Shown: positions 14,541 through 37,357 of the stretch, piece after piece | Layout: the number at the start of each line of letters is the position of its first letter | Numbering within the stretch: the stretch's first letter is position 1 | NCBI GenBank assembly: GCA_021300155.1 | Contig: JAJTID010000073.1 | Coordinates: forward strand, 1-41,682 | DNA length: 41,682 nucleotides | Direction of reading: 5' to 3' | Source of the DNA: Pirellula sp. | Lineage (GTDB): Bacteria; Planctomycetota; Planctomycetia; Pirellulales; Pirellulaceae | Translations under genes and position numbers: made by a program | The notes under the pieces: generated by a model | Told to the model about the DNA's origin: nothing | Seen by the model: only the letters and a program-made list of their open reading frames with translations | Databases searched by the model: none

Positions 14541-14869
14541 GTTTGACGTCTCCCGAAGGCGTAATCTGCCGAACATCAGCATTCATCAGGTCAGTATTGG
14601 CCACAGCTAAATGTGTGTAGCTGGAGCCGCTGATGCAATGCATTGTTCTGATTTATTATTGGTTTATCAGCCCTGTCGACCTTGTTTTGATCGTCTAAGG
14701 GGCCATTCGAAATGGTAACCCAAAAAACACAAGTCCGACAGCAGCAACCGTTGCCGCTACAAAAACCCCTTGACAAACCGCGACTACGCAATCCGAGGAT
14801 CTCAAGAACTCGGTTCAAGTACTTTTCGACATGAGCTCGGCATCCGCCATCGCTAAAGTCGCGCCATCG
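14541..14869. other. Gap between immunity candidate 2 and the DUF1877 gene
   Basis: I see no complete gene. On the minus strand a stretch around 14700-14810 encodes a hydrophobic run (GVFVAATVAAVGLVFFG) that ends at a stop, but its frame has another stop just upstream and no usual start codon. It could be the tail of a lost small membrane protein. The rest shows no recognisable feature. Confidence 0.4.
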
Positions 14870-15349
14870 TTACAATTTCTTGGGTTCGGCAATAAGCTCC
14901 AACTCGTCATCAACCAAATCGATAATCTTTACTCCGCTCTCCCACAATTGTTGTGCACCATCGGTAAATCGATGATATCGCCGGACGTTTTCGCTTCCTT
15001 TCAATCTAGCGCCTATCTTGGTTTTCCTCTTTATATACTTTTCCAACCGAAGGAACCCTCCAAAGGCGGATTCCTTAAGTCGTTTACGTGATTGACGCCC
15101 CACATCAATGTACGATCGATCGACATTAGAGTTGTAAAAAAAATCTAAATCGACTACCAGCGACTTAGGTACTGGTTTTTCCAAAAAAACTAAACGTAAA
15201 TCCCTATCTTCCTCGAGCAGTGCCTTCAAGTCGGATGTCAAGCCTGCTTTTTTGTCGGAAATGGTCTGAGGGCACTCTCTCCATTCTACGCCAAAATCCT
15301 CCACCCACTCAGTGATCCAGGAAAATACCTCACCTCGAGTAACATGCAT
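14870..15349 (-). CDS. Candidate immunity protein of toxin unit 2
   Basis: The product has 159 residues from ATG 15349 (MHVTRGEVFSWITEW), with GGGA six bases ahead; a GTG at 15361 is the alternative start. It lies 28-40 bp downstream of the second giant toxin gene, on the same strand. I recognise no family. It is soluble, with a tryptophan-rich N-terminus, a basic middle (GRQSRKRLKES) and an acidic C-terminus (IIDLVDDELELI). Immunity function is inferred from its place directly behind a toxin tip. It does not resemble the immunity candidate of unit 1, as expected if tip and immunity gene are exchanged together. Confidence 0.75.
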   Translation of the reverse strand: MHVTRGEVFSWITEWVEDFGVEWRECPQTISDKKAGLTSDLKALLEEDRDLRLVFLEKPVPKSLVVDLDFFYNSNVDRSYIDVGRQSRKRLKESAFGGFLRLEKYIKRKTKIGARLKGSENVRRYHRFTDGAQQLWESGVKIIDLVDDELELIAEPKKL

Positions 15350-15388
15350 TTGTATTCCCACTCTGCTCTCACTTCCGCTTTTCTTGCT

Positions 15389-18300
15389 TCAATTGTATGG
15401 GACAAACGTCGTAGGAACCTTGCGATTGAGATCTCGAAGGGCCTCTCGCTCTCGCCGAACAGGTTTCCCCTTGGCGTTCTTCAATCCGACATTTACTGCT
15501 CGCATAACGCCGTTCTTGTCCGTGTAAAGAATGTCGGGCCTCCGAAATTTCCCTTTCGCGACTTCGATGATCGCTTCCGCCAACCTTTTCCCCTTAACTA
15601 TTAATCTTCCGCCACCGATTATTTTTCCACCGGCCTTAATGATCTTTTCTCGTTCTTCAATAATCTTCGCATTGTGCGGCGCAGTATCACTTGTCTTTGG
15701 TCCACGCTTTGCCGCTGGCTTGGGCCTAGTCTTATATTTGAAGCCTGGATTGTGCACAAGCACACCAAGCTCACCGACCTGGTAGATATGGTGTCCGTGC
15801 ACTTCCAGATTGTAGACGGACTCTGCAGTCGACAGCAACCTCTTTGATTGTACTTCAACGGGGCCATCTTCGGTCGACAAATGCTCGCCAACCTCGATTT
15901 CGCCAAGATCAATCCAATCCTGTCGCTCTATCGACCAAACGGGGTGTTGCGGTGTTCCAGTTAGAGACTCATTACCAAACTCGATTTCTACCAACTCGGA
16001 GACTTGTCGGGTGACGATTCGAGCCGTGACCACATTGCCAACTCCTTCCGCAATTGGAGGACAAGGTTCCATGGAGCGAACTTGTGCCATGCCAGACGCC
16101 TCTAGCTCGGGGAACTCCATGAAAATTAAGCTTCCAGGAGTTGCTTGCTTTGACTCCCAGTACTGGTTTGGGCGGATCATCTCCACGTCGACCCAATTCC
16201 CTGCTTCTTTCTGAAGCGAAAACTTGGCTAACTTCCACGTGGAGGAAGTTGGCTCGGGAAACTCGCCATCGTGCTCCCATGGTCGGGGGTTTTCACCTGA
16301 GACACGCGACCCGACCGCTACGGATTCTATCGCTTGTTTCGTAATGGTGCGCCGCATTTCTAACAATGTGGCGAAGGAAGACTGGGCGTATTGCGGTGAA
16401 TACCGTTCGCTAAAGTGATCTGGTTGATTCACAGACGCAGAGAGCCAAACCTTTGTACCAGCAACGAAGCAACCAGTGCCCGTCACTTTGCACTTGATCA
16501 GGCGCCCAATTGCCATAACATCGTCAGCCTTATCGGCCACAAATCGAGCTGCTTTGCCGCCTTTGCCGATGGCATCCCCCACAACGGGAACCATCGAGAC
16601 GAAAGAAAGAGCCGCTCCGACGTAATCGCCCCTGGCTAAAGAAACGACGCCGTTGATACCATCGGCAATTTCACCAACCACAGGAATAAATCCAACAACG
16701 TCCAACGCACCCTGCAATCCGTCTAGTAGATCGGAAGTTGTTAAGTTGGAAATGGCGTCGACGACTCCATGAATTGTGCCAGGAATGTCCACCATACTTC
16801 CAAGGACGTCGCCAGCAGCGCTTGTAAAACCTGCGAGGAACGATCCAGCGATCGCAAACCCATCCCACCCGTAGGTCTCCGCCGCCCAAATTCCGGCGTC
16901 CTCAATCCACTTCGCAGCATTGTCGAACAACTCTCGAACTTGATCGCCTGCCCATGCAAATGCATCTTCAACAGCGTCTACGGTGTCCCAAAATGCCTCA
17001 GCCTGTGAAAGAGCGTCCCATCGCTTCTCACCTAGTTTAGAAAAACCCTCGATAGATAGAATGCTCAAATCAGGTGCTTCTATTTCAGGAGGAGATGATT
17101 CTGGAAAGTTCAGTTCTCCACCTCCTAACTTGATCTTCTCTGAGTCCCAACGGAGTTTACCGTCGCCAAGGGCACCTGCAACAGGACCAGTACCTAAACT
17201 AGAATACTCGTAGGTGTATCCCCACGCATAAAAGCCGCTGTCGCTATAGCTGTAGCTATAACTGTAGGAACCACCTGTACTGTAGGAATAGCCTCCTCCA
17301 GTTCCGCTACCGCCTCCTCCCGAGGAACTGCTTCCTCCATCGTCAACCACTTCAATTTCCAAATCGCCATCGGACCCAGAAGATGAATCTGAGCTAGATG
17401 CCCCTGATTCGGACGTCCCAGAATCAGATGATCCGGAATAGGAACTACCAGCCAATGCCGTTAGCCCAATTGCCCCAAAGTTGGGTTTGGTCAACGAATC
17501 GTCCCAATCTTCACTTCTTGCATTCCCTGAACTGTAGTCACTGTTATTGCCTAAACCGCTTCCACCTCCGCTGGCACCTGATTCGGTCCAAGATGGAGCA
17601 AGACTCTCAAGGTATGAATCCGTACCAGATGTCGAGACGGAAGATGTGGTCGCGTTCGCGTACGATCCTGAGGGGCCATACTCGAACGCATATGCCCACC
17701 CGGACTCAGCTTCAATTTCAGGTTCTGTTGTCGACGAGCTATCCGAACTACCCGATCCAGAACCCGAACCGGAACCGGAACTGTCAGTATCAACGACTTC
17801 TGGCTCCTCCTCATCTGGTCCTCCACCACTTGAGCCGGGACCTCCATAGCTCCATGTGGAGCCCCACGATCCTGACCAGGAATAGGAATACCAATAATTC
17901 CAAGCGAACGTGTAATCGACGTCTGTTCGATAGTAGGAACTTCCATCATTTTTATAATACCATTCGGAACTCGATTCGGAAGTTGATTTTTGGTAGCTGC
18001 CGTAGTCGCCAGACGAATTTCCGTTGCTAAAGCCGGAGTATCCGGGACCAGAATAGCTGTAGCCCCATGACCCATCGTGATTGCCAGTCGAATCGGATAT
18101 CCATTCACTATAGCTGTGGTCGTTTCCTGAGTGAATCACAATGTACTCCTCAGTCGTCATCTTCGATTCGTAGCTCTCCTCGAAATCGGACACTCCGTGA
18201 GCTTCGTAGGTGTATTCTCCTTCACTATTATAGTCCGAGTATGAATTGGAGTTTGCATCGCTATAGGAGTAAGAACCGCCGGACTCACTCTGACTTTCGT

Positions 18301-24067: not shown

Positions 24068-24110
24068 GAAAACCTCGACGGGTGAAATTGAGGAAACAGA
24101 CGGAACTAAT
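23870..24110. repeat. 5' region shared with toxin gene 1 (copy 2)
   Basis: This is the counterpart of 10040-10290: the first 60-70 codons plus about 40 bp ahead of the ATG are almost the same in both genes. Similarity drops sharply further upstream, where this copy faces the export operon. Confidence 0.8.
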
Positions 24111-24339
24111 GAACTTGTTTTCAACCGCTACTAGGTGTTGAACATCAAGCAAGCATCTCGATTCCATTCCTCGGCTTAAGAAATTTTTCGAGCGGACCAG
24201 TAAACTACGAAGTTCCCCAACCCATTTCAACTAGGCTCATGCAGTTTTTTTGAAATTGTTTTCGAGTTTGGTTTACACTCGTAAGATCACTAAATCGGAT
24301 GTCGGTAGATTAAACGCTATATGGTTTTGGTGTCGAACA
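24068..24339. promoter_or_regulatory. Divergent intergenic region between toxin 2 and the export operon
   Basis: These 272 bp separate the start of toxin gene 2 (minus) from the start of the M50-HlyD gene (plus). Promoters for both should lie here. I cannot assign -35/-10 boxes with confidence. The divergent arrangement allows joint control of a toxin and its presumed exporter. Confidence 0.4.
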
Positions 24340-26547
24340 ATGGAAAACGCAAGTAACGACAACGAAACAGCGCTCCCGTTTGCTGCTCGACAAGATCTAG
24401 AATTTACGACGATTAGTTTCCGTGATGAAGAATGTGCGATTGCAAAGGACCCTGTTCGCCTGAAGTACTTTCGGCTCACCCCTGAACAATATCTTCTCCT
24501 GACTCTTCTTCGGGTTCCTCGATCCATCGAGCATCTCAAGCGAGAGATTCAAAGAGCTTTTCCTACCATCCACGTAGACGTTGTCGAAATTCAGAACTTG
24601 CTTCAAGACATGCACGAAAAAGGGCTTGTCGCCACAGCAAGGGTGGGGCAAGGAATACGACTAACCCTAAAGCGTTCAGAACAGTTGCGAAAATCGACAA
24701 TCAAGGTAATTAGCAACCCTTTGTTCATTCGTTTGCCGGGCTGGGACCTCAATCATTTCTTGGGAGTTGTATTGAGCGTTTTTGGATGGCTTTTACATCC
24801 ATGGATGATTCTGCTCACGCTGTTATTCGTTGGAGTGTGTGCTTCCTTTGCAGCCTCGCATTACGGCGAGATCCAAAGACGTCTGCCTGCACTCGAGCAG
24901 TTCTTTTCCGGAGAAAACATTTTCTACTTGTGGATTACGATTGCGATCACCAAATTCGTACACGAGTTGGGGCATGGACTGAGTTGCAGAAAGTTGGGTG
25001 GGGAGTGTCGGGAGATGGGGTTGGTTTTTCTTGTGTTTAGTCCAACGATGTTTTGTGACACCTCGGATTCTTGGCGATTCGACAACAAATGGCATCGAAT
25101 GGCAGTAGGTGCGGCTGGAATGTATTTTGAACTGATCTTGTCTGCAATCTGCGTTGTAATTTGGTGGAATGCTCCGATGGGAGCGATTCAAAACATGTGC
25201 CTGAACATCGCGTTTGTTTCGACCGTTTCCACGCTCATCTTCAACGCGAATCCGCTGCTGAAGTTTGACGGTTACTATATCCTGGCGGATTTCTTGGAAA
25301 TTCCCAACATGCAGACCAAGGCCACGCAAGCACTACGCAATGCGATCGCTTGGGGGTGCCTCGGCATCAAAGTTCCGCAGAGCGCTTTCCTTCCCCGCAC
25401 GGACAGGGGGCTATTTGTGCTCTATGCTATCTCCGCATCCCTTTATCGATGGGTCGTAATGATTGGCATCATGGGTTTCATGTATCAGATTCTGCGTCCC
25501 TATCGTCTGGAAACACTCGGACTGGGTTTGGCATCCATCAGTCTATTCACAGGGTTTGGGACTCAAGGAAAGCAGTGGTATGACATCTTGAGTGCTCCTC
25601 GAAAAACCCCCATGAGCAAGAAAAAGATGACGATTTCCTTGGTCATTCTTGCGGCGTTCCTTGGCTTTATCGCGTTTGTACCAATTCCTTGGTTTATCGA
25701 GGCTCCCTGTTATTCTCAACCTCATTTGGCACAAAACGTTTTCGCTACCGTGCCGGGTATTTTGGAAGAAATCCTGGTTAAGCCTGGTGAGCACGTTGAA
25801 GTCAATCAACCATTGTTGCGGCTAAAGAATGATGATCTTGTTGATCGCGTTCACACGTTGATTTCAGAGCTTGATATCGTGCGTAAGAAACAAGAAGCCG
25901 CCAGGAGCGTTTCCGACGAATCAGCTTCAAGACTTCATGAAGATCGCGAGAAGTCGATACTTGCGGAATTGACAAAAGCCGAAGGTTGGCTGGCCCAAAC
26001 AACAATACTGGCTCCGATCGCTGGACGCATCGTGGAGCCGCCAGTACTCCAAATGCCAAACGAAGAAGATTCGAAAATTCTCGGACGTTGGGCTGGAACC
26101 CCACTGTCGACCAAAAATGTTGGTGCGTTCATTGATGTGCAAACTCATCTCTGCACCATAGCCCCAACCGAGAACTACGAGGTTGTATTGCTTGTAGATC
26201 AAGAAGATGCAAAACAGCTACGATCAAGCCGCGACGTTAGAATTAAAATCTACGGTACTCCCAACGTGGTTATACGAAGCAAGCTAGAAGTGGTTGCCGA
26301 GCGAGCCATTAGGAATTGCCCCCCCGAACTGTACGCTTCATTCGGGGGACCGATTGCAGCCACGCCAACTCCTGACGGACGATTTTTGCTGGATCGAGGT
26401 ATGATCATGGCAAGTGCAAGGATAACGCTTACCGACGAACGACTGCAAACTGGCTTTCGTGGATCCGCTAGAATCATCGTCAGCGAGTACTCCATCGGCA
26501 ATTGGCTATGGAGATGGGCCGTTACTAAAGTGTGGTTTCGACTATAG
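24340..26547 (+). CDS. PqqD-like / M50 (site-2-protease-like) / HlyD fusion protein
   Basis: The product has 735 residues from ATG 24340; an upstream TTG at 24250 is possible but less likely. Residues about 15-110 look like a PqqD-type winged helix, which in other systems binds leader peptides. Then come membrane segments with the zinc site HELGH (208-212) and the second M50 motif NPLLKFDGYY (D at about 310). A last membrane segment near residue 440 leads into a lipoyl/HlyD-like hairpin domain (ATVPGILEEILVKPGEHV) with a central coiled part. Such proteins are annotated as peptidase M50 or putative peptide zinc metalloproteases and sit beside HlyD/TolC genes. It heads a six-gene plus-strand operon. 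It could cleave a substrate, or act as the inner-membrane platform of the exporter; the zinc ligands look intact. Confidence 0.88.
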   Translation: MENASNDNETALPFAARQDLEFTTISFRDEECAIAKDPVRLKYFRLTPEQYLLLTLLRVPRSIEHLKREIQRAFPTIHVDVVEIQNLLQDMHEKGLVATARVGQGIRLTLKRSEQLRKSTIKVISNPLFIRLPGWDLNHFLGVVLSVFGWLLHPWMILLTLLFVGVCASFAASHYGEIQRRLPALEQFFSGENIFYLWITIAITKFVHELGHGLSCRKLGGECREMGLVFLVFSPTMFCDTSDSWRFDNKWHRMAVGAAGMYFELILSAICVVIWWNAPMGAIQNMCLNIAFVSTVSTLIFNANPLLKFDGYYILADFLEIPNMQTKATQALRNAIAWGCLGIKVPQSAFLPRTDRGLFVLYAISASLYRWVVMIGIMGFMYQILRPYRLETLGLGLASISLFTGFGTQGKQWYDILSAPRKTPMSKKKMTISLVILAAFLGFIAFVPIPWFIEAPCYSQPHLAQNVFATVPGILEEILVKPGEHVEVNQPLLRLKNDDLVDRVHTLISELDIVRKKQEAARSVSDESASRLHEDREKSILAELTKAEGWLAQTTILAPIAGRIVEPPVLQMPNEEDSKILGRWAGTPLSTKNVGAFIDVQTHLCTIAPTENYEVVLLVDQEDAKQLRSSRDVRIKIYGTPNVVIRSKLEVVAERAIRNCPPELYASFGGPIAATPTPDGRFLLDRGMIMASARITLTDERLQTGFRGSARIIVSEYSIGNWLWRWAVTKVWFRL

Positions 26548-26552
26548 GATTG

Positions 26553-28421
26553 ATGTGCGACATGCTTAGCTCATATGTGTCGACCATTCTTAAGAAACGT
26601 CAGCGACTTGCGGGTTGCTCCGATGGAGAGCTAGTTCGGTTCGCGAAAAAGCTGAAGTCGTATGCATTGAGTGGAAAGCCGCTCAGTCAGATCATGGTGG
26701 ATACCTACTCACTAGCGAGCGAATCCACTCGTCGCGTAACGGGCAAGTCTCACTACCCGGTTCAGATCCATGCCGCAATTCAAATGTTTCACGGTCGGAT
26801 TGTGGAAATGCAAACCGGGGAGGGTAAGACAATCACTGCGGTGTTGCCAGTTGTGCTACGAGCCTTTGCAGGATTAGGTTGCCATGTCTTGACGGCAAAC
26901 GAGTACCTAGCCACCCGCGACGCAAAACTATTGACGAGCATCTACGAGTTGTTAGGGCTATCTGTTGGCTCAGTGACAACAGACATGGATGATCAAGCAA
27001 GGGAAATCGCGTACGCGAAAGATGTCACCTATACGACGAGCGGAGAAGTCGGGTTTGATTTCTTGAGGGATACCATGAAAAGAGGCACTCCTGATTCTGT
27101 GAACAACAGATCGGAGATGACAAGGCCTGTACATCGCGGTTTCTACTTTGCACTTATCGACGAAGCGGACAGCATTCTCATTGATGACGCAAGAACTCCG
27201 TTGATCATTGGTTCCGAACGATCCGATGAGCAAAACAAGGAAAACCTATGTCGTTGGGCTTGCGATTTTGCTGCCAATCTGAGCCCATCGCAGCATTTTA
27301 TCCTAAATCCGAGACGCCGTACTGCAGATCTTTCGGAGTATGGCTGTCGACAAGTTTTACTTTCAGCAAAACCAAGCGTCCTGGCACAATTCAACAACGA
27401 GGAGATATTCAAACACATCGAACAAGCCATCGTAGCGAAGTACTTTTACTTGAAGGAACGGGACTACATTGTTATGGAGGATGATTCCATAGTGATCGTT
27501 GACGAGGGGTCTGGACGAGTAATGGAAGAACGAAAATGGCAGCAAGGTCTTCACCAAGCCATCGAGGCGAAAGAAAAGGTTCGTTTCTCTCCAGCCAATT
27601 CAACAGCGGCGAGAGTTACATTGCAGAGTCTTTTTCGAAAGTATGATCATCTGACGGGGATGACGGGAACGGCATACCACGCACGCGGTGAGTTGCGAAG
27701 CATTTATAAAATCGGGACACGTGTGGTGCCTACAAATCGGCCGTGTATCCGAGAACAATTACCGACGAGAATGTTCATCGATATCTCGTCAAAGCAAGAT
27801 GCCATCGTTGATTCAATTCGCCAACTGATTGGACTGAATCGTTCTGTATTAATTGGTACACCGTCCGTTGAGGCTTCAGAATCATTGAGCAAGAAGCTTA
27901 CTATGGCGGGAATTCTGCACCAGGTCTTGAATTGTCGATCACATGGACGTGAAGCTGAAATCGTCGCATTGGCGGGTCAAAGCAAAGCGGTTACCATTGC
28001 TACCAATATGGCAGGTCGAGGAACGGACATCTTGTTGGACGATGAAGTGCGTTCCGCGGGTGGGCTGCACGTAATCGCAACAGAAAGACACACATCCGTT
28101 CGCATCGATCGTCAACTCGTGGGGCGTTGTGCTAGACAGGGTGATCCAGGCAGTTTTCAATTTTTCCTAAGCATGGAAGATGAGCTGTTCCGTTCGATGA
28201 AAGCTGACTACCATGCAAAACTGATCGCAAAATGGAAGCGATTGGCTAGGAAGGAAGGTGAACTGCCAGCGAAAACTGAGAGAATACATGTCCAGTTACA
28301 GCGGACGATTGAAAAATTGCATACAAAAAGCAGGAAGGAACTTCTTAAGCATGAAAAACAACGCCTCAAGTCATTCATTCGAATGTCTCTCGATCCTTGC
28401 ATCGAATTGCTGAACGAATAG
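26553..28421 (+). CDS. Short SecA-like ATPase (accessory translocase motor)
   Basis: From ATG 26553 the product has 622 residues; the frame opens at 26532, which would overlap the previous gene, and ATG 26562 is another option. The DEAD motor is complete: MQTGEGKT (Walker A), HVLTANEYLA, LIDEADSILIDDARTPLI (Walker B and following), MTGTA, ATNMAGRGTDI and VGRCARQGDPGSF. It ends in a basic helical region right after the second motor domain. It therefore lacks most of the C-terminal scaffold/wing region and the zinc-binding tail of housekeeping SecA, which is usually 830-1100 residues. The key ATPase residues are present, so it should be active. A SecA2-type dedicated role for the giant proteins of this locus is inferred from the operon. 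Confidence 0.88.
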   Translation: MCDMLSSYVSTILKKRQRLAGCSDGELVRFAKKLKSYALSGKPLSQIMVDTYSLASESTRRVTGKSHYPVQIHAAIQMFHGRIVEMQTGEGKTITAVLPVVLRAFAGLGCHVLTANEYLATRDAKLLTSIYELLGLSVGSVTTDMDDQAREIAYAKDVTYTTSGEVGFDFLRDTMKRGTPDSVNNRSEMTRPVHRGFYFALIDEADSILIDDARTPLIIGSERSDEQNKENLCRWACDFAANLSPSQHFILNPRRRTADLSEYGCRQVLLSAKPSVLAQFNNEEIFKHIEQAIVAKYFYLKERDYIVMEDDSIVIVDEGSGRVMEERKWQQGLHQAIEAKEKVRFSPANSTAARVTLQSLFRKYDHLTGMTGTAYHARGELRSIYKIGTRVVPTNRPCIREQLPTRMFIDISSKQDAIVDSIRQLIGLNRSVLIGTPSVEASESLSKKLTMAGILHQVLNCRSHGREAEIVALAGQSKAVTIATNMAGRGTDILLDDEVRSAGGLHVIATERHTSVRIDRQLVGRCARQGDPGSFQFFLSMEDELFRSMKADYHAKLIAKWKRLARKEGELPAKTERIHVQLQRTIEKLHTKSRKELLKHEKQRLKSFIRMSLDPCIELLNE

Positions 28422-28496
28422 ATGACTCGGCAGCATCGTTAGATTATCCTACCCTAGGTACTCTAAAATCCCGCATCGCCCACTCAAAGATCTCAA

Positions 28497-30485
28497 GTGA
28501 TATTCTCCTTCGAGCAGTTGATTTCGGACCTCGATTCGATCGGTACAGACTTCAGTTCCTATCGAGGCGATTTCGACGTCCTTTTGCGAAAACTCGTGGA
28601 ATGTGCCTGCGGTCATCTCTCTAGTATAGCGATTGTTGTCTGGACAATTGAAGAAGGCGAGGCTCCTGCTGTCAGGCTAGATATCGGGCTAGATCAGTTC
28701 GCGCAGAACGGTCACTTCAGGGTCAATTCCACGCACCACGATCAATTGGTGAGTTGCTCGGAAAGCGGTGAGATCGCGACAGAACATATAGGGCAAGTCG
28801 TGACCGGATTGAATCTAATAGGTCGTATCTTTCCTTTTTCCGCTGGGACAAAGCGATTGATTCTCGAGATATTGTGCGACGATTCTTTTTTCAAGCACTC
28901 TCGCTCCTCGATTGACGCAGTTGGGCAAAAAATTTGCGATGTTGTCGATCTTCATTCGAAGAAGGCGGTAGAGCCGAGTTCTTCTGCCGAATCACAAGCG
29001 GCGATTAACAACAAACAGCTCGATCGATTTTTGCAGTTGCTCTATGAGCAGTTGAGTACCAGTAGAGTGGCTGCAGTTTCGGCAACAGATGGTCGAATCT
29101 TGGCAGGTTGTGATCGTCTGAGTGTCGTTTTGTTCCGTGGTAGCGGATGTAAGCTGCTTGCGATTAGCCACGTTGAAACGATTCAGAGGCGTGCTGGTTT
29201 GTCCAAAGCGATGCGAAAGCTTGCGAACTTGTCGAGGTGGTTACCTCAAAAGTTGATTTTGCAGGGCGGAGATGCAAATTGTCCAGACAATATGCTGGAC
29301 GCCTTTGCGGACTTCATCGCGGAGAGTCGCTCGCAATGCGTGGCGTTGATTCCTTTGGTCCCAAGTGATGAACATGAGAGAACCAAACATGAAATGGCGC
29401 ATCGAAAGATTCCCAAAAAGAAGTCGATTGGTTTGTTGTTGGTCGAACAGTTTACCGGAAGCCAAGACTTCCATTCTTGTGTGGAACGAGCCGAACTACT
29501 TCGTCCTCATATCGCGTCGGCGTTAAAGAATGCGAATTCATATGAATCTGTTCTGTTTTTGCCAATCTGGAGATGGATAGGTACGAAAATTCGATGGCTA
29601 TTGGGGTACCCCAAAATAGCAATCGCCTCCGTGATAGCGGTTTTGGTGGCTACAGGTATCTGCTTAGCGTTTGTGCCTGCTACTTATCGGGTACACGCGG
29701 AGGGGCGAGCGATGCCTGAGATTCAACATGAGATATATGCCAAGGCTGATGGAATCGTTAAAGAAGTCCTGGTCGTTGGCGGTGGGCGCGTGAAGAAAGG
29801 ACAAACGCTTCTGACTCTCGACAACAAAGAATTAGAATTAGACTTGGTTGCTAGCAAGAACAAAATTGTCGAATTGTCCTCACAGGTCGAATCGCTGGGA
29901 GTAAAACTGCAAGGCGCATTACAACTTGGCGACCGCGAACAGGAGCTTGCGATTGAAGGTGAAAGAGCGGCAGCGTCCATTGAACTTTCTGGGACAGAGA
30001 CACGTGTCAGAATTTTGGAAGAGAGAATTAGCCGGTTGGTTGTCGTGTCGGAGTTTGATGGAGTAGTTGCAACGTTTCAGCCAGAGGAGTACTTGACAGG
30101 CCGTCCCGTGAAGCAAGGAGACCTTTTGCTTGAAGTGATGGAGGACGAAGGTCCATGGCGTCTAGAACTGAACATTTCTGAATACCGAATGGGACACGTT
30201 CTAAAGAGTCTAGAAAAATATGAGTCCCTGAAGGTTCGGTACATTGCTATGACCGAAGTTTCTCAGCCAAAATATGCTATGCTCTCGTCGGTTGCCACGC
30301 GCGCAGATCACAACGAGAGACTTGGAGCTTATGTTCGCGCATATGCAAAGATCGATCGATCAGAAGTGCCCGACCAACGCATTGGTGCTGAAGTTTCAGC
30401 AAAGATTCGCTGCCCTGACTACAGTCTTTTTTATAGTCTATGCGGCGACGTTGTTGAATTTGTAGAACGAAACGTGTGGTGGTAA
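28497..30485 (+). CDS. GAF-like sensor / HlyD membrane-fusion protein
   Basis: The 662-residue product starts at GTG 28497; an upstream in-frame ATG is blocked by a stop. The N-terminal half (1-350) looks like two GAF-type or related cytoplasmic domains, seen for example in IGLLLVEQFTG and LRPHIASALKN. One membrane segment follows at about 372-392 (IAIASVIAVLVATGICLAFV). Outside it is a HlyD-type adaptor: lipoyl half HEIYAKADGIVKEVLV, a helical hairpin with ELELDLVASKNKIVEL, and lipoyl half two VVVSEFDGVVATF. It would bridge the inner membrane to TolC while sensing a cytoplasmic signal. It lies 75 bp after the SecA-like gene and 54 bp before the next gene. Confidence 0.85.
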   Translation: MIFSFEQLISDLDSIGTDFSSYRGDFDVLLRKLVECACGHLSSIAIVVWTIEEGEAPAVRLDIGLDQFAQNGHFRVNSTHHDQLVSCSESGEIATEHIGQVVTGLNLIGRIFPFSAGTKRLILEILCDDSFFKHSRSSIDAVGQKICDVVDLHSKKAVEPSSSAESQAAINNKQLDRFLQLLYEQLSTSRVAAVSATDGRILAGCDRLSVVLFRGSGCKLLAISHVETIQRRAGLSKAMRKLANLSRWLPQKLILQGGDANCPDNMLDAFADFIAESRSQCVALIPLVPSDEHERTKHEMAHRKIPKKKSIGLLLVEQFTGSQDFHSCVERAELLRPHIASALKNANSYESVLFLPIWRWIGTKIRWLLGYPKIAIASVIAVLVATGICLAFVPATYRVHAEGRAMPEIQHEIYAKADGIVKEVLVVGGGRVKKGQTLLTLDNKELELDLVASKNKIVELSSQVESLGVKLQGALQLGDREQELAIEGERAAASIELSGTETRVRILEERISRLVVVSEFDGVVATFQPEEYLTGRPVKQGDLLLEVMEDEGPWRLELNISEYRMGHVLKSLEKYESLKVRYIAMTEVSQPKYAMLSSVATRADHNERLGAYVRAYAKIDRSEVPDQRIGAEVSAKIRCPDYSLFYSLCGDVVEFVERNVWW

Positions 30486-30539
30486 CGATAGCGAAATGGT
30501 GACCCAAATACTTCTTTAGGAAAGCAGGCTTTCGTCTAG

Positions 30540-32531
30540 ATGGAAACAAATCTTTTGCTGGGATTGGGAGCTGGCCAATGTGGCTTTGGCGCTTTAAAGG
30601 AGCTCATTGCGCGTCAGCCTCAGACGGTGGCAACGATCGAAGATGCTCCAATTTTGCCCTGGGTTACCGATGACAAGGAGCGGCGAATCCGCGAACGCCT
30701 GTTGCGACTTCGCAATTCGGCGTCGGGAGCGAGACTGCGCTGCGATATTGCTGCATTCTACTTGCCGTTCGTTCCGTTGGTTTTGGAAACTGACCCAAGT
30801 GTTAGAATGCTGTGCCTCCGTGCATCCGTTGAGACCGTTGTGAAAGGGTTCGAGTCACAACTGGATAGTGTTGCTCGTGTGCCGACAAACAACTGGTCGG
30901 AGATTCTGCCAACCGGATGGTTCCGTGACCCAATTTGGTCCCGCTCTTTTCCGAAATACAATACGCCGTCGCGATCCGAGGCCATTGCACTCTATGTGAA
31001 TGAGTATTACGAACAGGCAGAGAAGTTTGCGATCAATCACCCTGAAAATTTCTTGTTAGTCGATGACCATCAATTGAGCGATGAGAATACTGTCAAAAGA
31101 ATCCTCGAATTTGTGCAGATCCCGTCAACGCTGCAAAATTTGTGGATGTGCCCACCTGATAGACTTCATCCGAAGGCCGGAATTGCACGAAAGTATAGCG
31201 ACGATCCTATGGACCCTCGCAAATGTGTTGTGTTGGTGCCTTTTGGCATGTTCATTCATCAAGAATGCGACTATGCGCTCAAAGAACTGGAACGAAGAGG
31301 TTACGAGGTTCGTCGTGTCGGAGGCTATGCAGCGATCGATCAGGGAAGAAATCAGATGGCCACAGATGCGTTGCTAAACGGGTTTGAAGAGACTTTTTGG
31401 ATTGATTCCGATGTTGGTTTCCATCCTGACGACGTTGAGAAAGTCAGAAGGCATAACCTGCCAATCGTTTGTGGTATTTATCCACAAAAAGGTAAGCGTG
31501 CATTAGCTTGTCATGTGGCGCCAACGATGCCAGCGGTAACGTTCGGAAAAGAAGGGGCATTGATTGAGATCCTATATGCTGGTGCGGGATTCTTGAATAT
31601 ACGCCGCGCGGCATATCAGAAGGTTCAGGACGATTTAAATCTTCGCGTTTGCAATGAACGATTTGGTGCGCCAATGATTCCTTTCTTTCAGCCCATGATT
31701 AGGGAGATCGAAGAAGCCCATTGGTATTTGGCAGAAGACTATGCTTTTTGCGAACGGGCTAGAAGTTGCGGATTGGTTACTTACGCTGATACCTCGGTAC
31801 GGTTATGGCACATCGGAAACTATCGATACGGATGGGAGGACGCAGGCATGGATCGTCCTCGATTTAATAGCTTCACGATGAATTTTAAGGACACCAAGAC
31901 GCCTCGCACGGAAACTTCGCAAAACGACAAAAGTACTTTAATGAACTTTGCTGCAAGGTATCCTTGGCCAGAAACGCGGCCTGAGGATATAGCGGCAGCC
32001 GATCGAATTTGGATTCTGCCCTCGGTGCGCCAAGCATTGGCAGATACCGTAAAAGTTGACGACACTTGTGTTGTGGAGTTGGGGTGTTGGATAGGACGAA
32101 CCAGCAGGCTGATTTCTGAATTGGCTGGACATTCAAAGATCATTTGCCTTGATCCATGGAAAGGATATCCGTTTGCCCAGAAAGACCCAGAAACGGAATC
32201 ACTCGAATCAAACCTATTCGAGAAGTTTGTTCACGAGAATTGGGACATGCAAAACAGGATAATACCTGTACGCAAGGAGTTTATGGATGGGCTTATAGAA
32301 ATTGCAGACAGCGGTGTTCAACCAGATGTGTTGTTCTTTAATGCAATTTCTGATTGTCCCGAGCTCTTGGTTGCGATTAAAGCGGCGATTGATTTGTTTC
32401 CACGAGCCACGCTTGTCGGACATTGCTTCGATCGACCTCCAATTGCTCAAGAGCTTGAGAGTCTTCGCGAACAAAGGAAATTTCGGCTGGATACACTTTC
32501 GACAGCCTGGAGAATTTGGCCCCGCAGTTAA
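30540..32531 (+). CDS. Three-part enzyme: sulfotransferase-like, glycosyltransferase, methyltransferase
   Basis: The 663-residue product begins METNLLLGLGAGQCGFGALKEL, whose glycine-rich turn resembles the PAPS-binding loop of sulfotransferases (residues 1-225). Residues 230-460 resemble a GT-A glycosyltransferase, with the metal-binding motif DSD at 289-291, then GAGFLNIRRAAY and EDYAFCERARSCG. Residues 480-663 look like a class I SAM-dependent methyltransferase (VVELGCWIGRTSRLI, then IICLDPWKG). Three modifying activities in one chain suggest ordered decoration of one glycan. No signal peptide or membrane segment is seen, so it acts in the cytoplasm. It lies 54 bp behind the exporter genes and 12 bp ahead of the next glycosyltransferase. 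The sulfotransferase part is the least certain. Confidence 0.75.
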   Translation: METNLLLGLGAGQCGFGALKELIARQPQTVATIEDAPILPWVTDDKERRIRERLLRLRNSASGARLRCDIAAFYLPFVPLVLETDPSVRMLCLRASVETVVKGFESQLDSVARVPTNNWSEILPTGWFRDPIWSRSFPKYNTPSRSEAIALYVNEYYEQAEKFAINHPENFLLVDDHQLSDENTVKRILEFVQIPSTLQNLWMCPPDRLHPKAGIARKYSDDPMDPRKCVVLVPFGMFIHQECDYALKELERRGYEVRRVGGYAAIDQGRNQMATDALLNGFEETFWIDSDVGFHPDDVEKVRRHNLPIVCGIYPQKGKRALACHVAPTMPAVTFGKEGALIEILYAGAGFLNIRRAAYQKVQDDLNLRVCNERFGAPMIPFFQPMIREIEEAHWYLAEDYAFCERARSCGLVTYADTSVRLWHIGNYRYGWEDAGMDRPRFNSFTMNFKDTKTPRTETSQNDKSTLMNFAARYPWPETRPEDIAAADRIWILPSVRQALADTVKVDDTCVVELGCWIGRTSRLISELAGHSKIICLDPWKGYPFAQKDPETESLESNLFEKFVHENWDMQNRIIPVRKEFMDGLIEIADSGVQPDVLFFNAISDCPELLVAIKAAIDLFPRATLVGHCFDRPPIAQELESLREQRKFRLDTLSTAWRIWPRS

Positions 32532-32543
32532 AGAGCCAGCACC

Positions 32544-33554
32544 ATGAGAATTGTTCACCGATTTTACGACTTGTTCGTCGGCGGAGCAGAAGTTGTTGTA
32601 TTGAATACGGTAAAGGCGCTTCCTGACCACGAACATGTATTGCTCTTTTCAAGAGCCGCAAAGAGCTGGATTTCTGAAGAGTTGTCAGAATTGCAGAACG
32701 TGTCTTTGTTGCAAGTCGAGCCCGGCAAAGAGACAGGGATGATTGGCAGCCAGAATGCCGATCTGAATTGTTTCCATTACTATCCGCCAATGAGTGAGTC
32801 CGACTTTCGAGATCTGCCACCTCGTGTCTTGAATCGGTCGCTGATAATCAACCATTGGTTCAAAGAGGTTCCCCTCGTACATGGTATGAGGTATATCTTT
32901 CTTTCCAAAGAGTCGAGAGCTCGAACAGGTGCGAGTGTACCTAACAGGCTAAGTCGAGTCTTGATCAACCCTGTCGCCGAAAAGTTCTTTCGAGTTCAAA
33001 GACAAGAAATCCCGTTTTCTGTGGGAAGACACTCTCGCGATGCCGAATTCAAGTTTCCTACTGATTTTTTCGGATTGCACGAGTCGATTCGTATCGGCGA
33101 TCTTAATGCGATGATATTAGGAGCCCCAATCGAAATGCAGCAGTACGTCAAAACAAACTTGTTTCGATTGAAGAACAACTATCTCTTGCTCGGATTTGGA
33201 TCGATGAGAGTTCCCGACTTTCTCAAATTTCCACAAATATACTTGTATCAGACGCGGGAGGACTTTGCCGAAACATGTCCAATGAATATTCTCGAAGCAA
33301 TGGCTGCTGGCATCCCCGTCGTTGCGGAATCCAAAGGTGGTATTTGTAGTCTCTTGACCCACAACGAGACAGGAATTTTGTGCACTTCTACGGACCAGTA
33401 CGTCGATTCTTGCCACCTTCTTTTTGATAGTGCTCAAGAGAGGAGACGCATCGGTGATGCCGCGCAGCAATGGGCTAGAGAGAATGCTTCGCTTGAGCGG
33501 TTCGGTGAGCATTTTTTGCAGGCGACGAGCCAGCTCCTATCAATCGCGATCTGA
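32544..33554 (+). CDS. Glycosyltransferase family 4 (GT-B) protein
   Basis: The 336-residue product starts MRIVHRFYDLFVGGAEVVVLN, where GGAE is the typical N-terminal loop of GT4 enzymes. The C-terminal half carries the donor-binding segment CPMNILEAMAAGIPVVAESKGGI and HNETGILC. Only 12 bp separate it from the previous gene, so the two are co-transcribed. It is somewhat shorter than the usual 360-400 residues, with a compressed middle part. It would transfer a nucleotide-activated sugar in the cytoplasm. The acceptor is unknown; the Ser/Thr/Asn-rich giant proteins of the locus are candidates. Confidence 0.85.
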   Translation: MRIVHRFYDLFVGGAEVVVLNTVKALPDHEHVLLFSRAAKSWISEELSELQNVSLLQVEPGKETGMIGSQNADLNCFHYYPPMSESDFRDLPPRVLNRSLIINHWFKEVPLVHGMRYIFLSKESRARTGASVPNRLSRVLINPVAEKFFRVQRQEIPFSVGRHSRDAEFKFPTDFFGLHESIRIGDLNAMILGAPIEMQQYVKTNLFRLKNNYLLLGFGSMRVPDFLKFPQIYLYQTREDFAETCPMNILEAMAAGIPVVAESKGGICSLLTHNETGILCTSTDQYVDSCHLLFDSAQERRRIGDAAQQWARENASLERFGEHFLQATSQLLSIAI

Positions 33555-33635
33555 AAATGGAATGCACATTTGACTTTCTTTCGAGGTTCGCTTCAGAAAT
33601 TCCCCCCATTAGCCCATTAAAGGAGTGCTTGAACG

Positions 33636-34289
33636 GTGTCATTCCATGAGTCGATCAAAGTAGAATCGGAGGTCGCAGAGGTGGCCGAGAATTGGTTCAA
33701 TGACGAGGCCTACTACGAGTATGCAGAGAAGAACGTTGACGATTTTTGGAAACCGTCATCAGCATTTCGATTGAAATTTGCTCATCTGGACGTTCGGAAT
33801 GTTTTGGAGCTTGCATGTGGTCGCGGTCGACACAGTTGGGTCATGCGAGATTGGGGAAATCGCAAAACGTTGGTCGACATTGTGCCTGCGAACATTGATT
33901 TCTGCCGAAACAGATTTCGAGATCACAACGATGTAAGCTTTCTTGCGAATGATGGCAAGTCCCTGGATCCACTACCAAATGAAGTATTCACATCTGTGTT
34001 TAGTTATGATGCAATGGTTCATTTCGATCACTTAGTAATTTACAGTTACTTACTTGAAATCCACAGAGTATTGAGACCTGGGGGAATGGCGCTTTTGCAT
34101 CACTCGAACTATGCCGCGAATCCTGGGGGAAAATACACGCTAAATTCTCACTGGAGGAATTTCATGCCGCCAGGATTGTTTTATGACTATTGCCTCAAAG
34201 CGGGATTAAACATAGTTGAGCAAACAGTGATTCCTTGGGGTGAGCATCAGCAAATCGATTGTCTTTCTCTAATAGTTAAGCCTGCTTAG
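33636..34289 (+). CDS. SAM-dependent methyltransferase (class I)
   Basis: The 217-residue product starts at GTG 33636 behind GGAG. It has the SAM-binding motif I VLELACGRGRHSWVM, an acidic end of strand 2 (LVDIVPANIDFC), motif III-like VFSYDAMVHFDH and the post-motif LRPGGMALLHHSNY. This is a small-molecule or sugar methyltransferase of the Methyltransf_11/25 kind. It closes the plus-strand operon, 81 bp behind the GT4 gene, and probably methylates a sugar made or moved by the two preceding enzymes. It is distinct in sequence from the methyltransferase domain of the three-part enzyme. Confidence 0.87.
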   Translation: MSFHESIKVESEVAEVAENWFNDEAYYEYAEKNVDDFWKPSSAFRLKFAHLDVRNVLELACGRGRHSWVMRDWGNRKTLVDIVPANIDFCRNRFRDHNDVSFLANDGKSLDPLPNEVFTSVFSYDAMVHFDHLVIYSYLLEIHRVLRPGGMALLHHSNYAANPGGKYTLNSHWRNFMPPGLFYDYCLKAGLNIVEQTVIPWGEHQQIDCLSLIVKPA

Positions 34290-34298
34290 AATGCTATT

Positions 34299-34313
34299 AA
34301 CCCGAAAGGGTTT
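34299..34313. terminator. Possible bidirectional hairpin between convergent genes
   Basis: AACCC-GAAA-GGGTT forms a 5-bp stem with a GNRA-type loop in the 65-bp gap between the converging methyltransferase and TolC genes. A run of T follows only weakly on either strand. Its position suits a terminator, but it is short. Confidence 0.4.
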
Positions 34314-34354
34314 GAAAACACATCCAATTGCAATAGAGTTCCGTTGTAGTTGCA

Positions 34355-36247
34355 CTAAAATCTAACGGATAGATTGTTGTCTTCGACAATTCGTCCTTGA
34401 CGGTAAAGAAGTTCACATAGAGCGTTGTAGTATTCAGCTCTAGAACGTTTTAATTCCGCGTCATCGTTCACATTCGTCTGGATTGCGTTTGCCAAAAGAA
34501 CGCTGTTTTCGATTTGAAAGTCAGCCAGTTGCCTAGCCTCGAGTGAACGAATGACTGCCATCGATCGTTCAAATTGGTCTTTTCGAATCTGACAAGTTTG
34601 ATAAATCAAGTCGATGTCGTTTGTTATTTGCCGGAGTTCAAAAAGCAATTCGTTACAGCGATCTCGGCGGACGATCGCAAGCTTGTGGAGCTGGGCTGCA
34701 ATATTCTTCTCTCTCGTACGTGCTAGTCGACGTCCTGCTACCGACGCTAACTCAAATCTGGCATCCCATCCAGTATTCTGCCCGTCGAATAGGTTCCTGT
34801 AAACGCTCGCTGTTGCGCTATCTGGTCCAGGAATGTCTGGGGCGAACATATTATCACCAAACCCGTTGACATTGTATCCAGTCACAAAGTCCAGTTGAGG
34901 TCTGTTGAGATTCCTAGTCGCCAAGTATTGTGCTCTCAAACTCCGTTCTCTTAGTTCTAGAATTCGGAAGTCGGACCTTGAATGAATGGCGGATTGGTGC
35001 GCATGATCGACATCTGCCATAAACGGAACAGGATCTCCAAGGCCTCGCAACTGGAGTCCTTCGATTGTATTCGGGTAGCCGATTAGTCGCTGCAGTCTTG
35101 CTGAAATAGTCCGGTTGTTCCGGAGCTCATTCATTCTACTAAGCAAAATCCCGTCCCGGGCTTGTTTTGCCTGAAGCAGATCAAAAATTCCACCCTTTGC
35201 TTTGCTCTCTACGGCTGCTTCCGATCTAGAAATCAACTCCTCAAGTGATCGGGTCGCGCCATCGTAGATGTCTATGATCTCGTTTGATGTAGACAGTTGA
35301 TTGTAGAGAATTTCAACGTCTCTCAAGAGTTGTGAAACTGCTAAGTTCAGCTGTTCTCGTGCTTCCTCCGTTTGAAGCTTTGCAATCAAGACGCCTTGCG
35401 ATACTCCAGTTACGCCATCTATCGTTCCGTTCAATGGACCAGCCACTGATGTAACCTGCCTCCCAGCACCTGCAAGCAAAGGTTGTCGAATTTCCCCGCG
35501 AATTCGTCCATTGAACGAGGAGGGATAAAAGGCGTCTTGAATGTTACTTGCCAAATAGTCCAATTCGTGCGACAAGCGTATTTGTCCACCCCATTGAGTA
35601 TTCTTGGTTGCACTGGTCAAGTACTGACCGGTCCTGTTTTGTAGCGTCCCCCCCGGCGGTATTCCCCCGGAAAGGAATCGGTTGTTTTGAATCAAGTCAT
35701 TTTCACCGACTGCGATTTGCTTGTTCCACCGCCAATCAAAATCGGAATTCGCCGCATTTACTCCGCGTTGCCCGAAGAGAAAACCTGATTGGGCGATATC
35801 GTAATCCGCAAGGGTTGTAGTGGACTCAACGACACTACCGTTTATCGGAGATAGGAAGTCCGCATCCCGCCTGATGACTTCGTTGTTTGACAAAGCAAAG
35901 AGTTTGACATCATCAAGGCTAAAGTACCGTTCTCCGAATGTTTCATACAAATCTCCAAGAATTGGATCCGGACCATTCGCCAAGTCTACGTTTGTTGAAT
36001 CTACGCGGAAGTCCGATAGACGATTGGGATCGTACTCGACTTCCTTTACAGCAGATGCCTGCTGAATGGCGCCAGAGCTTGGATTGAGACTATCGAGGTC
36101 ATTAACCAATGCGGGCTCGATTCTTGTCGGACTACACTGCTCATGACGGTCGGATGTATTTGTCGGCTTCCGTCTTGGAATCCCTCCACAGCCGGGGGAC
36201 AACAAGATCAATGCGATTGAGAAAAATCGAAAATAGCTGAGCGACAT
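34355..36247 (-). CDS. TolC-family outer-membrane efflux lipoprotein
   Basis: The 630-residue protein starts MSLSYFRFFSIALILLSPGCGG, a lipoprotein signal with lipobox LSPGC. The body has the long helical repeats of TolC proteins (EQLNLAVSQLLRDVEILYNQL, ARDGILLSRMNELRNNR) and a second half with LRAQYLATRNLNRPQLDF, the usual second-repeat pattern. An insertion of about 150 residues after the signal is not typical of short TolC. It forms the outer-membrane duct for HlyD-type adaptors. It lies 258 bp behind the adaptor gene on the same strand and converges with the export operon, whose own two HlyD-type proteins would need such a duct. Confidence 0.88.
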   Translation of the reverse strand: MSLSYFRFFSIALILLSPGCGGIPRRKPTNTSDRHEQCSPTRIEPALVNDLDSLNPSSGAIQQASAVKEVEYDPNRLSDFRVDSTNVDLANGPDPILGDLYETFGERYFSLDDVKLFALSNNEVIRRDADFLSPINGSVVESTTTLADYDIAQSGFLFGQRGVNAANSDFDWRWNKQIAVGENDLIQNNRFLSGGIPPGGTLQNRTGQYLTSATKNTQWGGQIRLSHELDYLASNIQDAFYPSSFNGRIRGEIRQPLLAGAGRQVTSVAGPLNGTIDGVTGVSQGVLIAKLQTEEAREQLNLAVSQLLRDVEILYNQLSTSNEIIDIYDGATRSLEELISRSEAAVESKAKGGIFDLLQAKQARDGILLSRMNELRNNRTISARLQRLIGYPNTIEGLQLRGLGDPVPFMADVDHAHQSAIHSRSDFRILELRERSLRAQYLATRNLNRPQLDFVTGYNVNGFGDNMFAPDIPGPDSATASVYRNLFDGQNTGWDARFELASVAGRRLARTREKNIAAQLHKLAIVRRDRCNELLFELRQITNDIDLIYQTCQIRKDQFERSMAVIRSLEARQLADFQIENSVLLANAIQTNVNDDAELKRSRAEYYNALCELLYRQGRIVEDNNLSVRF

Positions 36248-36505
36248 GGTTTGATCTACCGTTTAGGCGAAGGTAGTTTGATAGCATAAGCGGTTTAGTC
36301 GAATTACTCAAAACAATTGTACTGAGTGTTTCGAACCCACTTCGCGGCGTCGGTGAGCATTACTCCATTGGCTGGATCATTAGCAAAATTCCCTAGAACA
36401 CGCGTTTTCCTGTCGATCCTCACAAACAGTAGATTTTGCCATGAGTACGATGGCCCACTTCCGTTTTGAGCACGATGTGTCCTCGATATTCGTCAAATTC
36501 TCTTG

Positions 36506-37357
36506 TCAATTCGAGCCAAACAGAATTGCAGTAACTGCTTCCCCTTCCACTAGCCCCTGCGTATCTGTAGTCTCCCCCCATATTCGTATAAGCTTTTGGA
36601 CCTGTTGCGCTCCTACATCAATGAATTTTAGGTCAAACGCAACTTCTTTTCCTGATTTCTGACGAACCATTATTTTGTCACCGACTCGAAGATTTCGCGA
36701 CTCGTCTAAACTAACAAAACCCTCGACTCGGAGTTTGTTCTTACTGACAATTTGTCCAATCGGTTTCAAACCATCGACCGACGAGCCCTTCGAAAGTAAT
36801 CGGCGAGTTATCGTCCCAGTAAATGGCGAAGTTAGAATCGTCGCCTCGTACGATGCCTTTGCGATCTCGGCCTCAAGCGCTGCAAGTTCCTTCTCACGAT
36901 TTTTCTCGTTGAGTTCAGCAACCGCCAAATCCAAATCCAGTTCCAGACGGCGAATCTCCTGTGACGGGATGGCATGGAGCACTAATTGATTGGCATCAGT
37001 TGCCCTGGACTTCGCTGTTTTGGAGGCAGCGATTCTTGCCTTGGCTGTCTCCAGAGTTTCTGATGCGTCTGCTTTTGCTTTTCGAAAGGCATATTCTGCT
37101 TTTTCGCGATCATTCTCAAGTGTAGCTAGTACCTCACCAGCTTCAACGACCTGCCCTTCCTCAAAGAGCACGGATTTCAGCCGCCCAGCTATTGAAAAAC
37201 TCAAGTCAACGCGATCTGCATAGCGTACCAAGGGTTGCTTGACCTCGATGGAAACTGTTCGATTTTTCGCATCACTTGGTTGTGCAGAAGGATCTTCTGA
37301 ACTTGCAAAGGGAAGAATCGCCAAGAGTAAACAACCAGACATGAACGAAGGAGTCAT
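36506..37357 (-). CDS. HlyD/RND-type periplasmic adaptor protein
   Basis: The 283-residue product has an N-terminal signal-like segment (SGCLLLAILPFASS), then a first lipoyl half (GRLKSVLFEEGQVVEAGEVLATLEN) and a helical hairpin rich in A, E and K. A second lipoyl half (LTSPFTGTITRRLLSKGSSV) and a beta-barrel part with VGDKIMVRQKSGKEV follow. This is a complete but compact membrane-fusion protein without its own transmembrane anchor. It precedes the TolC gene on the same strand and presumably works with it. No inner-membrane pump gene lies beside it, unlike typical RND or ABC operons. Confidence 0.87.
   Translation of the reverse strand: MTPSFMSGCLLLAILPFASSEDPSAQPSDAKNRTVSIEVKQPLVRYADRVDLSFSIAGRLKSVLFEEGQVVEAGEVLATLENDREKAEYAFRKAKADASETLETAKARIAASKTAKSRATDANQLVLHAIPSQEIRRLELDLDLAVAELNEKNREKELAALEAEIAKASYEATILTSPFTGTITRRLLSKGSSVDGLKPIGQIVSKNKLRVEGFVSLDESRNLRVGDKIMVRQKSGKEVAFDLKFIDVGAQQVQKLIRIWGETTDTQGLVEGEAVTAILFGSN

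Follow-up and report, generated by a model that had tools for sequence, protein, structure and literature searches.

We analysed a 41,682-nt stretch of Pirellula sp. DNA (contig JAJTID010000073.1 of assembly GCA_021300155.1; hereafter the window) in which genes for two giant proteins adjoin a candidate export operon. The operon lies on the forward strand, divergent from the nearer giant gene, and encodes, in order, a peptidase-adaptor fusion (M50-HlyD, P0003, 24250..26547; Peptidase_M50, HlyD_3 and HlyD_D23 matches), a shortened SecA (mini-SecA, P0004, 629 aa, 26532..28421; SecA_DEAD 9e-90, PP_bind, P-loop_SecA), a second adaptor fusion (GAF-HlyD, P0005, 28497..30485; HlyD_3), the 663-aa protein P0006 (30540..32531) and, as recognized by Pfam, a GT4 glycosyltransferase (32544..33554) and a class I methyltransferase (33636..34289). 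Counted from its first possible start, the mini-SecA gene shares 16 bp with the M50-HlyD gene. Inverted relative to the operon, on the reverse strand, are genes for a TolC-like outer-membrane protein (34355..36247; OEP 5e-11) and a soluble adaptor of the HlyD/resistance-nodulation-division (RND) type (36506..37357; HlyD_3 1.5e-12). All window genes described here are open reading frames (ORFs) at the coordinates given by an earlier annotation of this DNA, the original prediction, whose account of a short SecA and two HlyD-type fusions in a divergent operon, with an inverted HlyD-TolC pair, is borne out by the domain matches. Its further statement that no ATP-binding cassette (ABC) or RND pump is present holds among the window proteins scanned, a set that does not cover every small ORF.

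The two giants are encoded on the reverse strand (giant 1, P0001, 2062..10329, at most 2755 aa; giant 2, P0002, 15389..24124, at most 2911 aa) and share one plan: a basic N-terminus with the motif LEDLEYRVMLSG, Big_9, a Ser/Gly/Thr stalk, a helical pre-Hint region (judged by eye), PT-HINT and a short C-terminal tip. Residues 191–2250 contain 16–18% S, 14–15% G, 9–11% T and 5–8% N which, with the PT-HINT and Big_9 matches, agrees with the predicted pair of giant Ser/Gly/Thr/Asn-rich proteins. The giants are 49% identical over residues 9–2090 and 69% over 2121–2630 (giant 1 numbering), with the tips falling outside the alignment, and over 149 bp at their 5′ ends the two genes are 88% identical. 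Their true start is likely an internal ATG (MAVAFWLG...), as suggested by a homologue in a second genus of the family (genome G125).

The predicted fold of M50-HlyD comprises an RRE/PqqD-like domain (residues 42–131; RRE, recognition element of ribosomally synthesized and post-translationally modified peptides, RiPPs), a site-2 protease core (216–350) and a membrane-fusion protein (456–765); the first two had been overlooked by the original prediction. The protease is identified by HExxH and NxNP..DG motifs together with a site-2 protease fold, and the RRE domain by its PqqD-like fold. In this comparison the regions outside the adaptor were less examined, and the absence of other families there carries no weight. 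The M50 part also has a likeness to the daptide protease model, on which it scores 149 bits (cut-off 300). For P0005, a MacA-like adaptor with a transmembrane helix, the GAF label holds by homology (GAF was matched in 13 of 15 aligned relatives) and fails on the protein itself, which has no GAF match at E 0.1; the best 50 matches in its fold search are all adaptors, and none of them is a fold match specific to the GAF region. The GAF region suggests that export may be under small-molecule control. With HlyD-type adaptors and TolC, the window holds the adaptor and outer-membrane parts of type I secretion.

P0004 aligns with its closest PDB chains, which we take to be Bacillus subtilis SecA, only to about residue 600 of 765–841. 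The DEAD motor, preprotein-binding and P-loop domains are present in 19/19 aligned mini-SecAs, and the Walker A sequence TGEGKT occurs in 46/47, placing these proteins in the SecA motor superfamily. By contrast, the scaffold/wing domain SecA_SW (PF07516) was matched in one of the 19, marginally (E 0.021), and clearly in both full-length controls. From GRxxRQG to the C-terminus, mini-SecAs have 79–102 residues (44 measurable of 47; the three without this reference motif were left out) compared to 334–595 in seven housekeeping SecAs. A fully supported branch of a 54-row tree, built by a short search with SH-aLRT support only, splits the 47 mini-SecAs from the seven housekeeping SecAs, one of them alphaproteobacterial. 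By these comparisons, mini-SecA is a distinct truncated family without the wing/scaffold region, branching apart from housekeeping SecA. The two-helix finger of SecA sits in that region.

P0004 stays below cut-off on the SecA2 models (492.6 of 930, 529.7 of 1085 and 414.1 of 725 bits) and on the housekeeping SecA models (603.3 of 814 and 594 of 800 bits). SecY is encoded exactly once in 8/8 genomes and is absent from four plasmids carrying the module. An identity with SecA2/SecY2 was rejected on the single SecY and the SecA truncation, and the likeness to streptococcal SecA2 drawn by the original prediction does not hold for the same reasons. Over 36 loci, M50 and SecA distances correlate at r=0.92, a value reached in 0 of 9999 permutations, and 36/36 pairs are on the same strand; these loci were partly chosen for being linked, and one further locus of the 37 (L204) has no M50.

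In G125, the genes M50HlyD-SecA-HlyD2-P6-GT4-HlyD3-TolC are co-directional at one contig end, and another contig opens with the remainder of M50HlyD, divergent from a giant that spans two open frames, carries LEARVMLSG and Hint and is 50–52% identical to giant 1. Because the set is syntenic in another genus, we conclude from gene order that it is a conserved unit and not a chance grouping. We rejected an operon unique to the window, given this synteny and relatives across the phylum, and also an unrelated convergent HlyD-TolC pair, which in G125 runs in the same direction as the operon. The window-type SecA is nearest in the tree to that of G125 and then to members of family f3. Many family genomes, the window's own among them (C49), have in the matches listed another, short SecA that shares about 45% identity with that of the window. 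Elsewhere in the window's own genome (C98; L061 7156-16722), M50-HlyD and HlyD lie beside a LEPRILMSA protein rich in GGxGNDxL-like repeats, with no SecA. A short SecA lies 3.4–4.3 kb from a full-length M50-HlyD match, on the same strand, in 11 of 32 near-complete genomes (the best match in nine, the second-best in two). Six of these eleven linked loci were inspected: all six have a GAF-HlyD-type gene between SecA and M50-HlyD, and five (L068-L071, L073) a second HlyD, which was not recognized in L072.

Beyond the family, we sampled 55 of 148 genomes of the phylum Planctomycetota, comprising families f2 and f3, genomes in which a short second SecA was recognized and part of the rest; short and long SecAs were told apart by eye from open-frame length, and 18 of the 148 genomes had no match listed. 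M50-HlyD is present in 27/28 genomes with a short SecA vs 2/27 without. Tallied by family code, the sole correction for phylogeny, it is present in 9/10 families with a short SecA vs 1/18 without. M50-SecA pairs in the order of the window recur in further planctomycete families, and giants adjoin the set in families f1, f3 and f47. One genome (G338) encodes a giant (LEDRVLLSG), a 631-aa protein similar to the GAF-HlyD of L185, M50-HlyD and SecA; another (G330) has M50, HlyD2 and SecA running one way and HlyD3, TolC and a giant (LEQRVLLAA) the other. At 80 named planctomycete M50 loci, many of which end at contig ends, a GAF-HlyD-type neighbor was found by best match in 51.

Some planctomycete loci carry additional genes upstream of SecA. 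In G019 a protein with three cyclic nucleotide (cNMP)-binding domains and a C39 peptidase, then a PpiC-type isomerase, precede SecA, and G017 carries similar genes there. At L048 (5971-8650) and L049 (8832-11606) the order directly upstream of SecA is a protein with three cNMP-binding domains, a C-terminal C39 peptidase and no ABC part, followed by a PpiC-type isomerase; Pfam was run on L048 only, and L049 looks alike. Elsewhere, cNMP-binding, C39 and PpiC-type parts of this kind are known as components of ABC-type exporters.

Plasmid relatives in Alphaproteobacteria were found by tblastn, and 14 M50 loci on 13 of 80 records, chosen by rank and organism, were inspected. At seven of these loci, genes for HlyD, PqqD/M50 and a SecA-like ATPase lie in a row downstream of a giant gene or a large open frame. 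HlyD-M50-SecA follows a 31.8 kb LEPR-XLL giant gene in Pontibrevibacter, a 24.4 kb giant gene in Alisedimentitalea and one of 26.5 kb in Methylosinus, where HlyD and TolC come next; two Pseudosulfitobacter loci have giants of 38.2 kb and 38.8 kb (the latter LEPR-XLL), and in Pseudohalocynthiibacter and Ensifer the place of the giant is taken by a large open frame. Upstream of the seven SecA-bearing loci there is an annotated giant in five and an open frame exceeding 2,400 aa in the remaining pair. The ATPase is variously labelled SecA, translocase, helicase, prepilin peptidase or hypothetical and is SecA-like in 7/7; no further SecA-family protein was found on the six plasmid records of these loci. 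DUF3467 is annotated in four of the seven. In L185, L186, L190, L191 and L206, the giant gene is followed by one for a small DUF3467 protein immediately before HlyD. Between the M50 and SecA genes, L205 encodes a SapC family protein (13531-14352) and Ensifer (L189) has a 273-aa ORF in the same place.

Giants adjoining such sets start with a basic stretch followed by an LExRxLLS[AG]-type motif, of which LEDLEYRVMLSG in the window giants is a variant. Eighteen giant N-termini were picked by motif pattern and so show occurrence, not frequency; one is probably a chance match and one comes from a SecA-less locus. By eye these N-termini are basic rather than signal-peptide-like, and the window giants open with a short hydrophobic or amphipathic stretch, MAVAFWLGRF. 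The LEPR-8K model (NF012209) scores over its cut-off in 17/28 genomes with a short SecA vs 0/27 without. Its matches close to the set, estimated by hand (one each in G263 and G330 and two in G338), are weak and were not used; only the two in G338 exceed the cut-off, with about one expected. At E 1e-3, too stringent a threshold for a model of 24 positions, LEPR-8K matches nothing in the window's own genome. The shared feature of the cargo is likely an LExRxLLS[AG]-type leader.

A conserved Hint body (49–69% identity) followed by an exchangeable tip is the pattern of polymorphic toxins and, on sequence criteria, the window giants are such toxins. No Pfam family matched their tips; the G125 tip is a Tox-GHH domain (1.2e-20), the one tip whose nuclease nature is seen by family. 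A small ORF directly follows each giant on the reverse strand, one of 208 aa after giant 1 (1436..2062) and one of 163 aa after giant 2 (14870..15361), and position alone makes both candidate immunity genes; a DUF1877 protein (14046..14582, reverse strand; 1.4e-25) may by position be a further one, and it alone exceeded the cut-off among the three small ORFs tested against Pfam. Between the giants (11196-13273) are transposase genes, presumably of the IS21 type, with rve and Mu-type domains in 11520-12434 and an IstB-like partner recognized by eye, which suggests that the toxin region has been duplicated or shuffled. Beside the HlyD gene, 37939-39654 encodes a patatin-like protein, recognized by a sub-cut-off Pfam match (E 0.0037).

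The pre-Hint+Hint region of the toxins is matched in 53 of 199 family genomes, mostly over the Hint part only. Only two genomes, that of the window (with two matches) and G125, cover residues 2–499 of this region at 57% or above; the next-best matches are G197 (19–462 at 35%, at a contig end) and G179 (84–498 at 28%). ORFs of about 12,800–14,000 aa with a Hint-region match occur in G138, G148, G172, G179, G185, G191 and G197, all of genus g36. Both genomes with these toxins carry them beside the operon. Because the toxin region is this rare (2/199) while the SecA/M50 set spans the phylum, the set is not dedicated to toxins. The original prediction had proposed such dedication and had named widespread operons lacking nearby giants as what would speak against it; at the 80 named M50 loci a giant with the motif was recognized in only 5, which counts against a dedication to toxins. 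What holds of that prediction is a conserved set of SecA, M50-HlyD, GAF-HlyD, HlyD and TolC, with no ABC pump within it, that is linked to giants in Planctomycetota and Alphaproteobacteria.

Of its three predicted sugar-modifying enzymes, the GT4 protein stands, the product of 33636-34289 is a methyltransferase and P0006 gives only weak, mixed signals. P0006 itself has no Pfam match, and a PDB sequence search returned designed repeat proteins only (best 0.0049); among its homologues, a sulfotransferase match lies just past the cut-off (L046, 4.6e-5) and the signals for a methyltransferase and a glycosyltransferase are weak, so P0006 is at most a possible fusion of such enzymes. P0006 homologues occur near SecA in G125, G060 and G101; counted by locus, P0006-type genes are near SecA in four of six loci of the window's SecA clade (the window, L045, L046, L047) and in none of five f3 loci (L167, L169, L171, L173, L175) that join this clade in the larger tree. 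It is plausible that P0006, GT4 and the methyltransferase decorate the Ser/Gly/Thr stalk in the window version; the only link to stalk glycosylation is the presence of the GT4 and P0006 genes in the same locus.

On balance we favor the view, which is far from certain, that the operon (24250-34289) and the HlyD-TolC pair (34355-37357) are one copy of an ABC-free, SecA-linked, type-I-like exporter for giant proteins, in a version that carries toxins and possibly decorates them with glycans. We propose a leader-guided exporter because the set combines an RRE-type domain, an inner-membrane protease, an ATPase with a clamp for polypeptides, adaptors and TolC with motif-bearing giants. The parts, their domains, synteny, co-inheritance, SecA truncation and single SecY are read from sequence and predicted fold; from these we infer the transport steps, leader recognition, channel and actions of Hint and toxin as follows. 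The RRE-like domain of M50-HlyD would bind the N-terminus of the giant (the basic segment, then LEDLEYRVMLSG), and the site-2 protease core would process or gate the leader in the inner membrane. Mini-SecA would grip the unfolded chain and provide ATP-driven movement through an inner-membrane channel, either M50-HlyD itself or the single SecYEG. M50-HlyD, GAF-HlyD and the soluble HlyD would form a periplasmic conduit to TolC, and the GAF region may gate export through a small ligand. Outside the cell, Hint would cleave and release a nuclease-like tip, from which the small genes after each giant would protect the producer.

Several observations weigh against this exporter. Lacking the finger region, mini-SecA may be unable to drive chains forward in the manner of SecA. 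Among the 32 near-complete genomes, 16 have their short SecA well away from all listed M50-HlyD matches, with five others not judged (G028, G083, G117, G174, G187; no short-SecA position among the matches listed). SecA lies in the retrieved flank of only 6/80 named planctomycete M50 loci, and a motif-bearing giant was recognized at only 5/80. G224 has a short SecA without M50, and G216 and G202 have M50 without a short SecA. The LEPR-8K model matches neither window giant at E 10 and is weakly specific, with sub-cut-off matches in 8/27 genomes without a short SecA and matches in 7/14 control genomes, one over cut-off. ABC genes also occur near some members: L148 has an ABC-like ORF within a few ORFs of SecA and L176 has sugar-type ABC genes in its vicinity (both from a motif pattern search), sugar-type ABC genes lie near L187 and L191, and a type I ABC lies near the SecA-less L208.

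On the plasmids, 7 of the 14 inspected M50 loci have no adjoining SecA. In five of these seven a shorter HlyD is present whose match falls mostly in the adaptor part; the Azospirillum B510 locus has no such HlyD neighbor. Thalassospira (L206) has a LEPR-XLL giant, a GAF-type HlyD and TolC with no adjoining SecA, Variovorax (L188 1-14055) a 48.7 kb giant gene with TolC, HlyD and M50-HlyD and no SecA nearby, and no SecA was found on the whole Variovorax and Azospirillum B510 records. SecA would therefore be dispensable in some systems or supplied in trans, and the Variovorax and Thalassospira loci are possibly a SecA-free relative of the machine.

An alternative that we regard as unlikely, if a serious contender, is a Sec-coupled two-step route in which mini-SecA feeds the giants to the housekeeping SecYEG, M50-HlyD then cleaves the leader and HlyD-TolC exports the product from the periplasm. 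The single SecY in all eight genomes, the intact motor and preprotein-binding domains (19/19) with TGEGKT (46/47), and the hydrophobic or amphipathic start MAVAFWLGRF all fit such a route. It is harder to reconcile with the missing scaffold/wing region that holds the finger (PF07516 in 1/19, E 0.021, vs 2/2 controls) and with N-termini that by eye are basic, unlike signal peptides.

It is improbable that the SecA/M50/HlyD set exports a small RRE-dependent RiPP-like peptide, as in daptide and epipeptide loci, or serves membrane stress, with the giants as chance or hitch-hiking neighbors. The RRE fold and the resemblance to the daptide protease model (149 bits against a cut-off of 300) would suit this reading, as would the many named loci, most of the 80, without a giant alongside and the only modest close LEPR-8K linkage estimated by hand. 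However, all seven SecA-bearing plasmid loci have a giant (5/7) or an open frame of more than 2,400 aa upstream, giants adjoin the set in three planctomycete families (f1, f3, f47), and LEPR-8K exceeds its cut-off in none of the 27 genomes without a short SecA. Slightly less probable still is a general exporter with no special toxin tie, the window being a diverged or laterally moved copy and the giants ordinary polymorphic toxins using the adjoining machine, a reading compatible with the exporter we favor as regards the machine itself and consistent with the phylum-wide set, the close toxin-region relatives in 2/199 family genomes and the SecA affinity to G125 and then f3, but opposed by the toxins adjoining the operon in both toxin-bearing genomes.

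Beyond the single exporter copy, we put forward tentatively, as a possibility we would not yet back, a new secretion system class shared by Planctomycetota and Pseudomonadota, in which a finger-less mini-SecA acting without SecY, an RRE/site-2-protease/adaptor fusion and a GAF-adaptor would export proteins of 1,000 to more than 12,000 residues in one step via TolC, guided by an LExRxLLS[AG] leader, with polymorphic toxins as one cargo. Its novelty is provisional: a limited literature search found no paper on planctomycete SecA with HlyD and giant proteins, and the LEPR-XLL literature it found, in the passages seen, is not about export. The polymorphic-toxin survey of Zhang et al. 2012 (PMC3482391), in most of its text, has no instance of HlyD, TolC, T1SS or membrane fusion and names SecA a single time, for a different matter.

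How LEPR-type proteins of thousands of residues are exported in planctomycetes and some proteobacteria is, to our knowledge, unexplained. The present analysis names a compact, conserved candidate machine with a likely leader-binding domain, a protease and a motor, and the plasmid modules of Pseudosulfitobacter or Methylosinus are cultured systems that carry such a gene set. If a SecA without finger and without SecY does work in this way, the idea that SecY channels are the sole partners of SecA-type ATPases would need revision, and polymorphic toxins would gain a further trafficking route.

Like the LEPR-XLL/LEPR-8K giants (NF012209), the window giants have an LExRxLLS[AG]-type N-terminal motif after a basic stretch, although in the LEDLEYRVMLSG variant and with no match to the model. 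With polymorphic toxin systems they share a Hint before an exchangeable tip and a small gene after each giant (PMC3482391). The M50 core and RRE-type fold recall daptide and epipeptide M50 proteases and RRE-containing RiPP enzymes, whereas the M50 of the window is fused to a membrane-fusion protein and its cargo is apparently giant proteins. Accessory Sec systems (SecA2/SecY2) of Gram-positive bacteria likewise encode an additional SecA-like ATPase next to glycan enzymes and a Ser-rich cargo; the window type differs in lacking a second SecY and the scaffold/wing, in having outer-membrane parts and in scoring below cut-off on SecA2 models. Type I secretion shares the HlyD-type adaptors with TolC, the repeat-rich giant cargo and the compact operon, but the window has no ABC exporter among the scanned proteins and in its stead encodes the shortened SecA, the GAF-adaptor and the RRE/site-2-protease/adaptor fusion, and the leader of its giants is N-terminal.

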